From NCBI RefSeq assembly GCF_030695035.1, contig NZ_JAUYTT010000014.1:1-64000 (forward strand): 64,000 nt of DNA, written 5' to 3'. The stretch comes from Frigidibacter sp. Lineage in GTDB: Bacteria; Pseudomonadota; Alphaproteobacteria; Rhodobacterales; Rhodobacteraceae. The position numbers and the translations under genes were made by a program. Of the stretch, positions 47,122-51,298 are shown one piece after another. The notes beneath the pieces were generated by a model. That model searched no databases and was not told the origin of the DNA. It was given only the letters and a program-made list of their open reading frames with translations. The first letter of the stretch is position 1. Each line of letters starts with the position of its first letter.

Positions 47122-47137
47122 ATTCTATATATTGAAT
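47122..47137. promoter_or_regulatory. ATTC-N8-GAAT palindrome, possible SqrR/BigR-type operator
   Basis: ATTCTATATATTGAAT is a 4-8-4 inverted repeat. Persulfide-sensing ArsR-family repressors of the SqrR/BigR group bind sites of this form in Rhodobacter, and they often control DUF2892 and rhodanese genes. The TATATA in its centre could also be the -10 of the downstream gene, so binding would block RNA polymerase. The regulator gene is not in the window. Confidence 0.6.
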
Positions 47138-47193
47138 TTGATGTGAGGCACCTGTATTCGAAGGGCCTGCTTTCCTGACATGGAGTTTTGCCG

Positions 47194-47397
47194 ATGTCCC
47201 TCGACCGTGCCGTTCTGGCCTTTGCCGGCGTGATGACCCTGCTGAGCGTGCTGCTGACGGCGCTCGTCTCGCCGCTGTTCATGTGGTTCACCGTGTTCAT
47301 CGGGTTGAATCTGCTGCAATCGGCTTTCACCGGGTTTTGCCCGGCCGCGATCCTGTTCCGCAAGCTGGGCGTGAAGGCGGGCTGCGCGTTCCAGTAA
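47194..47397 (+). CDS. Small DUF2892 (YgaP-like) inner-membrane protein
   Basis: This 67-aa protein consists of two transmembrane helices (about residues 5-26 and 29-46) and the family ending GFCPAAILFRKLGVKAGC. The same module is the membrane part of the rhodanese YgaP and often accompanies sulfur-detoxifying genes. ATG 47194 has GGAG at 8-nt spacing; the track start 47188 is a TTG just before it. Role unknown; persulfide-related function is inferred from the family and from the upstream palindrome. Confidence 0.82.
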   Translation: MSLDRAVLAFAGVMTLLSVLLTALVSPLFMWFTVFIGLNLLQSAFTGFCPAAILFRKLGVKAGCAFQ

Positions 47398-47465: not shown

Positions 47466-48041
47466 ATGACCATGCCTACCATCGCCCGCCGTACCCTGCT
47501 GGGCGGTATCGCCGCCGGGGCCGCGCTTGCTGCCCTGCCGCTCCGCGCCGCGACTGAAGCGCCGCTGGTGATCGCGCCGCAATTCATGCCGCAAGAGGTG
47601 CGGGTGCGCAAAGACATGGCGGTGGGATCGATCACCATCCTGTCGGACCAATTCTACCTCTATTTCATCGACCGGCCCGGCGTGGCCATCCGCTATGGCG
47701 TGGCGGTGGGGCGTGACGAGCTGAAATTCCGCGGCATGGCCGAGGTGGCGCGCAAGGTCGAATGGCCGAGCTGGCGCCCGACGCCCGAGATGATCGAGCG
47801 CAGCCCGGGGCATTACGCCAAATATGCCGACGGGATGCCGGGCGGGCCGACCAACCCCTTGGGCGCGCGGGCGCTGTACCTGTACCAGAACGGGCAGGAC
47901 ACGGCGATCCGCATCCATGGCACGACAGAGCCGCAATCCATCGGAAGCGCCGTGTCGAACGGCTGCATCCGCATGGTCAACTCGCATGTCATCGACCTGT
48001 ATCAGCGGGTGCCGCTGGGAACGCCGGTGGCGGTCTATTAA
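47466..48041 (+). CDS. L,D-transpeptidase (YkuD domain)
   Basis: This 191-aa periplasmic enzyme has an N-terminal signal with a twin arginine (IARRTLLGG) followed by a hydrophobic stretch, so Tat or Sec export is possible. The YkuD catalytic motif runs from H151-GTTEPQSIG to S-N-G-C167-I-R, with C167 as nucleophile. Such enzymes make 3-3 peptidoglycan cross-links or attach proteins to the wall. ATG 47466 follows AGAGGG; the 252-aa track start is upstream. Confidence 0.9.
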   Translation: MTMPTIARRTLLGGIAAGAALAALPLRAATEAPLVIAPQFMPQEVRVRKDMAVGSITILSDQFYLYFIDRPGVAIRYGVAVGRDELKFRGMAEVARKVEWPSWRPTPEMIERSPGHYAKYADGMPGGPTNPLGARALYLYQNGQDTAIRIHGTTEPQSIGSAVSNGCIRMVNSHVIDLYQRVPLGTPVAVY

Positions 48042-48084: not shown

Positions 48085-49146
48085 ATGCCGGTAACCCTTG
48101 CCTCTATCCCCGACCTTGCACGCCTTGGCGTCGATGCGATCATCGACGTCCGCTCCCCGGCCGAATATGCCGAGGATCATGTGCCGGGCGCGATCAGCCT
48201 GCCGGTGCTGGATGACGAAGAACGCGCCCGCGTCGGCACCATCTACAAGCAGCAATCGCCGTTTCTGGCGCGCAAGATCGGCGCGGCGCTGGTGGCGCGG
48301 AATGCCGCCGCGCATCTGGAAGGGGCGCTGGCGGACAAGGGCGGCGGTTGGCGGCCCTTGGTCTATTGCTGGCGCGGGGGGCAGCGGTCGGGATCGTTCT
48401 CAACCATCCTCGCGCAGGTGGGCTGGCGCAGCGACACAATCGTCGGCGGCTACAAGACCTGGCGGCGGCTGGTGGTGGACATCACCCACGATCTGCCCTT
48501 CACCGCGCCGGTGGTGGTGCTGGACGGCAATACCGGCAGCGCCAAGACCGAGGTGCTGGCCCGCGCGGCGGCGCGGGGGGCGCAGGTGATCGACCTCGAG
48601 GGGCTCGCGAACCATCGCGGGTCGCTGTTCGGGGCGATGCCGGGCGGGCAGCCTTCCCAAAAGGCGTTCGAGGGGCGGCTGGCGGTGGCGCTGGCGGGAA
48701 TCGACCCTGCGCGGCCGGTGCTGGTGGAGGCGGAGTCCAATCGCATCGGCCGGGTGACGGTGCCCAAGTCGCTGTGGCTGGCGATGGTGGCGGCGCCGCG
48801 GGTGACGATTGAGGCTCCGCTGGGGGCGCGGGCGGGCTATCTGGCGGCGGCCTATGCCGACCTGACGGCGGACGCGGCGGCGCTGGCCGCCGTGGTCGAC
48901 AAGCTGCGCCCCTTCCATGCCCGCGAGGTGATCGAGCGCTGGCAGGGGATGGCCGGGGCCGGCGCCTTCGCGCCGCTGGCGGGCGAGTTGATGGCCGCGC
49001 ATTACGACCCGCGCTATGGCAAGGGCCGCGCCAAGCATGGGCCGGAGCGGGAGCGGGTGGTGCAGGCCGCGGCGCTGGATTCCGAAGGGCTGGACCGGCT
49101 GACCGATGCGGTACTGGCGGCGGTGAGCGAGCTTATTCCACGATAA
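48085..49146 (+). CDS. mnmH: tRNA 2-selenouridine synthase
   Basis: This enzyme (SelU/YbbB) replaces the sulfur of 2-thiouridine at the wobble position of certain tRNAs with selenium, via a geranylated intermediate, using selenophosphate. The 353-aa product has an N-terminal rhodanese domain with catalytic C95 in YCWRGGQRSGS and a P-loop GNTGSAKT (148-155). It is convergent with selD and overlaps it by 14 bp at the 3' ends. The pair accounts for selenophosphate production and use. Confidence 0.93.
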   Translation: MPVTLASIPDLARLGVDAIIDVRSPAEYAEDHVPGAISLPVLDDEERARVGTIYKQQSPFLARKIGAALVARNAAAHLEGALADKGGGWRPLVYCWRGGQRSGSFSTILAQVGWRSDTIVGGYKTWRRLVVDITHDLPFTAPVVVLDGNTGSAKTEVLARAAARGAQVIDLEGLANHRGSLFGAMPGGQPSQKAFEGRLAVALAGIDPARPVLVEAESNRIGRVTVPKSLWLAMVAAPRVTIEAPLGARAGYLAAAYADLTADAAALAAVVDKLRPFHAREVIERWQGMAGAGAFAPLAGELMAAHYDPRYGKGRAKHGPERERVVQAAALDSEGLDRLTDAVLAAVSELIPR

Positions 49147-51298
49147 GACAGGGCACGCCGGGCTCGATATAGCCGATGATCGCCGCCGGCTCCCCGGCCG
49201 CTTGCAAGGCTGCCAGCAGCGCCTCGGCCTGACCACCCGGCACCGCCGCCAGCAGGCCGCCCGCCGTCTGCGGATCGAACAGCAGATCGGCCTGCCAGCC
49301 CTTGGGGAAGACCATGCGCCCGGCCACCGCCCGGTTCATCGGCAGCAGGGTGGAGCCGTGGCCGGCCGCCGCCAGTGCTTCGGCCCCCGGCAGAACCGGC
49401 ACCGCGGCAAAGCTGATCCGGGCGGCGACATCCGAGGCTTCGAGCATTCCCACCAGATGCCCGGCCAGGCCGAAGCCGGTGACATCGGTCATCGCATGGG
49501 CATGGGGGGCCAGCAGCGCCGCCGCCGCGGCTTGCGGGCGGGCCATCTGCGCCAGCGCGCCCGCGACCACGGGGCCCGGGGCGGCGCACTGCATTTCCGC
49601 GGCCAGGATCACACCGGTGCCGATGGGCCGCGTCAGGATCAGCGCATCACCGGGGCGGGCGCCGGACTGGCCGATGGGCTCCGCCTCCGTCAGGCCGGTG
49701 ACGGTGAAGCCCACGGTCAGCTCTGCCCCAAGGCTGGTATGGCCGCCGACGATATCGGCCCCCGCCGCGCCGAAAGCCTCGGAGGCCGCGGCCATGATCT
49801 CGGCCAGGGTGCGGGCCTGCAGGTCGGGCGACATGCGCGGCAAGATCACCTGCGCCAGTGCGGCTTGCGGGCGCGCGCCCATGGCCCAGATATCGCCCAT
49901 GGCGTGATGGGCGGTGATCCGTGCCAGCAGCCACGGATCCTCGGTGAAGGCGCGCAGATGGTCGGTGGTGATGACCTGACTTGCGGCGCCATGGGCCAGC
50001 ACCGCCGCATCATCGCCGGGGCCCGAGAGGACATCGGCGCGGCGCGGGGCGGGAAGGCCCGCGAGGGCCGCGCGCAGATCGGCCTGCCCGACCTTGGCCC
50101 CGCACCCGCCGCAGAGCGGCTTGCCGCCAGCCAGCAGGTCGCTGACCCCGGCTGCCACCCGGGCCGGCACCGGCGGGGCGGGCATCGGCGGCAGGTTGTG
50201 GAACATCGCCATGAAGCGCCGGTCGATCCGGTCTTTCCAGTGCCAGAGCCAGGCCCCGTTCAACGGCAGGCCGAACTTGTCCGCCACCGCATGGCGGCTG
50301 CCGGCCGAGATGAGCTTGAGATAATCGCGTTGCGGGCGGTAGCTGCGCAGCCCGCGGCGGCCGGCCAGCACCTTGCGCAGGTTGTGCAGCAGGATCGGTG
50401 CCTCGCGCACCGCGAAGACCCCGGCCTTGGGACGGGGGGCGTGCGACAGATGGGCGATATCGCCGGCGGCGAAGATCGCGGGGTCGGTGATGGATTGCAG
50501 GGTGGGGCCGACGGTGACGAAGCCGCCGGTCAGGTGCAGGCCGGTCTGGGCGAGCCAGCCTTGCGGTTGAGTACCCGCCGCGCCGAGGGTGAAGGCAGAC
50601 GGGACGCGGCGGCCATCGGCCAGCAGCACGGCATCCGGTTCGACCGAGGCGGCGGGGCTGCCGGTCAGCAGCGTGACCCCCAGCCGCTTTAGATGCGCCA
50701 GCAGCCGGGCGCGGGCCCCGGCCCCCAGCAGGGGCAGGGCCTGCGGGCCGGCCTCGATCAGTGTGACCTCGGCCCCCGGGCCAAGGCGGTGCGCGGCGGC
50801 GAGGGCCAGCTCCACCCCCGCCACGCCGGCGCCGATGACGGCGACCTGCCGCGGGCCTTTCTGCGCCGCGAACGCCTCCCACGCATCGGCGAAGGCATCC
50901 AGCGGTTTGGCCGGGTGGGCATGTTCGGCAAAGCCAGGCAGCGATGGCATGTCGGAGGTGATGCCGATGTCGAGGGAGCAGATGTCATAGCCGACCGGGG
51001 GACGGCCGGGCACAAGCACATGCCCTTTGGCGCGGTCGATCCCCTCGGCCCGGCCAAGAATCAGCCGCGCGCCGGCATGGCGGGCCAGTTGCACCAGATC
51101 CATCTGCAGCGCGGCGCGGGAGTAGTGCCCGGCGATATGGCCGGGCAGCATCCCCGAATAGGCGGCGCTCGGGTCCGGCGAGATCAGCGTGACGCGCACC
51201 CCGGGCAGCGGCTCCATCGCCCACATCCGCAGCACCAGCGCATGGGCATGGCCGCCGCCGATCAGCACGAGGTCACGGGTCAGGGGCAACAGTTGCAT
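49133..51298 (-). CDS. selD: Selenophosphate synthetase fused to an NADH-dehydrogenase-like flavoprotein
   Basis: This 721-aa two-enzyme fusion has an N-terminal FAD/NAD(P) oxidoreductase of the NDH-2 type (about residues 8-370; LVLIGGGHAHA and AVIGAGVAGVELA). The selenide, water dikinase (about 390-721) follows. The active-site loop reads L-C396-G-G-C399-G-A-K402; C399 and K402 align with C17 and K20 of E. coli SelD, so cysteine is used rather than selenocysteine. ATG 51298 starts right before the flavin motif. The oxidoreductase may supply selenide by reduction, by inference. No selA/selB is seen nearby. Confidence 0.93.
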   Translation of the reverse strand: MQLLPLTRDLVLIGGGHAHALVLRMWAMEPLPGVRVTLISPDPSAAYSGMLPGHIAGHYSRAALQMDLVQLARHAGARLILGRAEGIDRAKGHVLVPGRPPVGYDICSLDIGITSDMPSLPGFAEHAHPAKPLDAFADAWEAFAAQKGPRQVAVIGAGVAGVELALAAAHRLGPGAEVTLIEAGPQALPLLGAGARARLLAHLKRLGVTLLTGSPAASVEPDAVLLADGRRVPSAFTLGAAGTQPQGWLAQTGLHLTGGFVTVGPTLQSITDPAIFAAGDIAHLSHAPRPKAGVFAVREAPILLHNLRKVLAGRRGLRSYRPQRDYLKLISAGSRHAVADKFGLPLNGAWLWHWKDRIDRRFMAMFHNLPPMPAPPVPARVAAGVSDLLAGGKPLCGGCGAKVGQADLRAALAGLPAPRRADVLSGPGDDAAVLAHGAASQVITTDHLRAFTEDPWLLARITAHHAMGDIWAMGARPQAALAQVILPRMSPDLQARTLAEIMAAASEAFGAAGADIVGGHTSLGAELTVGFTVTGLTEAEPIGQSGARPGDALILTRPIGTGVILAAEMQCAAPGPVVAGALAQMARPQAAAAALLAPHAHAMTDVTGFGLAGHLVGMLEASDVAARISFAAVPVLPGAEALAAAGHGSTLLPMNRAVAGRMVFPKGWQADLLFDPQTAGGLLAAVPGGQAEALLAALQAAGEPAAIIGYIEPGVPCLIVE

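Follow-up and report, generated by a model that had tools for sequence, protein, structure and literature searches.

We propose that the palindrome ATTC-N8-GAAT upstream of a small membrane protein gene in the window (the whole 64-kb stretch of DNA analysed) is a SqrR operator, and that this gene, an MFP-RND efflux operon and a stand-alone rhodanese gene would be derepressed together by persulfide. We place the probability of this reading, in which we infer binding, repression and response from sequence comparisons, at roughly 0.87. The features concerned are collected in Table 1.

Table 1. Position of the proposed operator, its promoter and the adjoining genes in the window
Feature	Position	Strand	Remark
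Proposed SqrR-type operator ATTC-N8-GAAT	47122..47137	.	palindrome ATTCTATATATTGAAT
Probable -35, TTGAAT	47132..47137	+	right half-site of the operator
Probable -10, TATTCG	47155..47160	+	17 nt after TTGAAT
67-aa small membrane protein, PF11127 YgaP-like_TM (DUF2892)	47194..47397	+	invariant Cys49-Pro50
YkuD L,D-transpeptidase	47466..48041	+	68-nt gap after the PF11127 gene
tRNA 2-selenouridine synthase SelU/MnmH, rhodanese domain	48085..49146	+	0.7 kb downstream of the PF11127 gene
NADH-oxidoreductase/SelD fusion	49133-51298	-	convergent with SelU

The membrane protein matches the PF11127 profile with an E-value of 9e-13 (48.6 bits; curated cut-off 25.3). Its ORF starts with ATG at 47194, preceded by GGAG at 47182-47185, and this start lies 56 nt downstream of the palindrome. 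One further PF11127 gene was located in the genome (C4:629104), with no ATTC-N8-GAAT, exact or with one mismatch, in the 300 nt before its profile match. UrtA is encoded upstream of the window gene on the other strand. Downstream, the gap preceding the YkuD gene contains TTGTGC-N18-TACAGT (read by eye), so YkuD and SelU may have their own promoter; YkuD is probably not co-regulated with the PF11127 gene, and the same probably applies to SelU and SelD. SelU and the SelD fusion constitute a selenium-modification pair adjoining the sulfur-response gene, and the earlier note's remark that no other sulfur gene is nearby is, given this pair, not quite right. The likely partners, namely the MFP-RND operon, the rhodanese and sqrR, are found elsewhere in the genome. 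The order PF11127-YkuD-SelU recurs, together with the operator, in a Sinirhodobacter locus (L057).

The ATTC-N8-GAAT palindrome described in the earlier note is present, in a single copy, in the window. Dinucleotide shuffles gave a mean of 0.52 such sites, with at least one in 43 of 100, so the match is not significant alone; its significance derives from conservation upstream of homologues. Its shape, which had been compared to that of SqrR/BigR sites, equals the recognition site deduced for RcSqrR, ATTC-N8-GAAT (PMC9774250), and as in a SqrR/BigR regulon this form stands at a promoter. Including flanks, the operator reads ACATTC-TATATATT-GAATTTG, the family consensus being ACATTC-N8-GAATGTG.

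Homologues of the window protein were discovered in 15 of the 61 genomes searched, and an exact site lies 41-87 nt ahead of the PF11127 start in eight genomes (G000, G003, G007, G009, G014, G020, G028 and G035). Among 80 homologous loci from the genome collection, 16 possess an exact site in the 200 nt ahead of the gene, where 0.08 would be expected from the rate elsewhere in these loci (0.001 exact sites per 200 nt outside the upstream regions) and 0.16 from shuffled upstream sequence; in 91 pooled upstream regions a spacer of 8 nt occurs in 24, any other length between 2 and 14 nt occurs 0-2 times, and the half-sites in opposite order, GAAT-Nn-ATTC, occur 0-3 times, the homologues behind both sets of counts being related, and hence not independent events, while spanning several genera. 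Conserved letters extend outward beyond the half-sites towards the consensus, and the spacers of the operators have a GC content of 27% versus 73% for the other matches in this genome. Conservation upstream of orthologues, on which the earlier note had let its proposal depend, thus withstood the comparison (24/91; 16/80), and the site is found before co-targets as well.

Exact sites were absent from most of the more distant homologues (64 of the 80 loci). In these the operator may differ or sit upstream of a larger operon; the operons of this kind that were inspected had no single alternative element in common. Four Mesorhizobium loci (L039, L040, L041 and L044) share an AT-rich element, CATATTAAKAnnTACRAATAAT, between sqrR and the SQR-like gene, possibly the operator of rhizobial SqrR/BigR proteins in diverged form. 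The sister species (G001, L007), whose site is 72 nt upstream of the start, has ATGC instead of ATTC as its left half-site and an intact right half. This locus, in which TTGAAT-N17-TATGCG is retained, represents a natural operator-loss variant that could be constitutive.

A sigma-70 scan found no consensus promoter before the window gene, and the promoter was identified through comparison of homologues. We compared 15 promoters in which the right half-site reads TTGAAT and is 62 nt or more upstream of the start: TA follows exactly 17 nt after TTGAAT in 13 of them, and in 0-4 at other spacings. At this distance TATGCG is found in one congener (L007) and TATTTG in another (L008). Because of this TA hexamer the operator is read as overlapping the -35, which in the window is a more likely placement than the -10 overlap that the earlier note had, probably wrongly, chosen. 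Six loci form a second class of promoters, with the site 38-61 nt upstream of the start. In each of them TTG is located 17-18 nt ahead of the site, an arrangement that would place the -10 within the operator, as had been assumed for the window. Either placement fits repression by blocking of the polymerase.

The genome contains 13 ArsR-type (PF01022) matches. One of these, a 118 amino acid protein on contig C4 (190737-191090), matches PDB chain 6o8k (E-value=1e-46 over 108 residues), an entry named only as an ArsR-family regulator which we take to be R. capsulatus SqrR. Both sensor cysteines, in LMILCHL and MFC, are aligned, as in regulators of SqrR/BigR regulons. The genome thus contains the SqrR homologue, with both cysteines, whose absence the earlier note would have counted against its proposal. 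With the NCBIfam BigR model this protein scored below the cut-off of 155 (E-value=3.5e-31, 107 bits), and it is therefore considered SqrR-like and not a BigR in the strict sense. Each of the eight genomes in which an exact site precedes the PF11127 gene has a SqrR match with an E-value of 1e-36 or better, a co-occurrence that lends mild support since most genomes of the family have such a match. A look for R. capsulatus itself as a positive control, by its SqrR at a strict cut-off, matched none of 397 sampled family members. A second ArsR protein (C28, L026; E-value=6e-30 to 6o8k) has arginine at the second cysteine (MFRD for MFC) and shows 66% identity to SqrR over the DNA-binding core. It is interpreted as a SoxR-like paralogue because its neighbours are YeeE-, CcdA- and thioredoxin-like genes.

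Across the genome (4.31 Mb, 29 contigs) there are 19 exact ATTC-N8-GAAT sites. The proposed regulon was selected from their contexts, by proximity to a start and conservation in relatives, and three sites qualified, namely those before the PF11127 gene (C25), the MFP-RND operon (C4, 186-191 kb, with sqrR) and the stand-alone rhodanese (C4, 636 kb). The second, CACATTCATGTCTCGGAATATATG, is 22 nt upstream of the MFP start in the efflux operon, which is convergent with sqrR, and is retained in G001, G003 and G020. The third, CACATTCTGGTATTGGAATGCAT, precedes a rhodanese of 124 amino acids (PF00581); of 15 homologues, 12 have the exact site and two more have it with one mismatch, in agreement with the suggestion of the earlier note that SqrR/BigR sites are tied to rhodanese genes. 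Nearly all remaining exact sites are inside called ORFs, the longest-ORF calls being overpredictive in this GC-rich genome. Two identical intergenic copies of ATTCATCTGGGTGAAT, 23 nt apart (G000:C17:2532 and 2555, L037), were located on a contig of 4.6 kb; their spacers are GC-richer. In addition, ATTCTGGGAGGAGAAT (G000:C26:145048, L130) is intergenic, directly before a LacI-family-like ORF, and has a GC-rich spacer.

Many of the 80 loci have the PF11127 gene beside a Pyr_redox_2 gene and an MFP-RND pair, often with a sqrR/bigR gene within about 2 kb. The Pyr_redox_2 product is termed SQR-like here because its match to the NCBIfam type III SQR model is below the cut-off. The RND proteins of these clusters are up to 79% identical to that of the window's genome, in which no close copy of the SQR-like enzyme was found (best 27% identity over most of the length). 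The cluster seen in relatives (SQR-like, PF11127, MFP-RND) is thus broken up in this genome. The PF11127 family is not uniformly linked to SqrR, since in 11 of the 80 loci an exact upstream site was lacking and the seeds used detected no neighbour.

The palindrome might instead be an operator of the SoxR-like paralogue, alone or with SqrR, in which case the gene would belong to a sox regulon and respond to thiosulfate or sulfane sulfur. The similarity of the DNA-binding cores is in its favour, as is the observation that Hyphomicrobium SoxR binds several sulfur-gene promoters (PMC10451225). Within 14 kb around the paralogue, however, there is no exact or one-mismatch ATTC-N8-GAAT, whereas the site beside sqrR is exact and retained in relatives; the paralogue also lacks the second cysteine. 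We consider this alternative unlikely, and the paralogue was rejected as the main regulator.

A palindrome arising by chance in an AT-rich promoter, with no repressor bound, would agree with the number of matches expected in 64 kb and with the decayed left half in one congener, but is contradicted by spacer-specific conservation across genera, by the exact site in 16 of 80 loci where about 0.1 would be expected, and by the same site at the rhodanese and MFP-RND promoters. It was rejected on conservation and is very improbable. Slightly less probable still is the reading that the conserved operator serves some unrelated repressor whose half-site is identical: short inverted repeats are common to many regulators and SqrR was assigned by motif identity and gene association, yet the site is identical to the published RcSqrR site and the target genes are of the SqrR/BigR type.

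The proposed SqrR regulon resembles that of R. capsulatus (PMC9995734) in its operator, its two-cysteine SqrR homologue and a rhodanese target, and differs in having a stand-alone PF11127 gene as a target. In R. capsulatus, sqr, the rhodanese gene rcc01557 and an uncharacterised flavin/pyridine-nucleotide disulfide reductase are controlled by SqrR and induced more than 10-fold by sulfide (PMC9995734); the comparison made here is one of regulons. A further difference is that the genes for the SQR-like enzyme, PF11127 protein, MFP-RND pump and rhodanese, which various relatives have in clusters, are in this genome either dispersed or absent. A further parallel is E. coli ygaVP (PMC9774250, PMC4730233), where a SqrR/BigR-type repressor controls YgaP-type transmembrane and rhodanese domains, and where the YgaV footprint on the promoter contains a sequence similar to the RcSqrR site (PMC9774250). 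There both domains are in one protein, YgaP, encoded in one operon with the repressor YgaV; in this genome each domain has a gene of its own, and the two genes lie at different loci behind separate operators. The bigR operon of Xylella and Agrobacterium likewise has a two-cysteine ArsR repressor acting on sulfide-detoxification genes at promoter elements, but its targets are Blh and a TauE-type exporter and the repressor recognises the -10 region (PMC5823870), unlike the window site, which probably overlaps the -35.

Established here are the site, its conservation and spacing, the regulator gene and its cysteines, the common sites and the gene clustering. In the mechanism that we propose, a SqrR dimer on ATTC-N8-GAAT would mask the -35 and keep the PF11127 gene off without sulfide. 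Persulfide would bridge the two cysteines, SqrR would leave the DNA, and the gene would be switched on together with the MFP-RND operon and the rhodanese, whose promoters have this operator too. The window protein is the counterpart of the membrane half of YgaP, and probably helps to handle sulfane sulfur or its products at the membrane or to export them. For the YgaP membrane domain, conformational changes on SCN- binding led to the proposal of thiocyanate export (PMC4730233), and by analogy the window protein might have a role with sulfane sulfur or thiocyanate. Perhaps YgaP is functionally split here, the stand-alone PF11127 protein and rhodanese acting in trans and synchronised only by identical distant SqrR operators, with PF11127 as a general membrane partner in the persulfide response of SQR-like enzymes and MFP-RND pumps; we offer this tentatively, as somewhat less probable than its negation.

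Judged by these comparisons, the window gene would be an additional member of a dispersed SqrR regulon of a type already known, and very probably belongs to a sulfide/persulfide stress response that is scattered over the genome but otherwise ordinary. The association of a PF11127 protein with an SQR-like enzyme and an RND pump was not found in the literature searched. The finding points to a sulfide-response cluster that is dispersed in one genome, each piece retaining its own operator, and the PF11127 gene family gains a testable regulatory context, persulfide stress.
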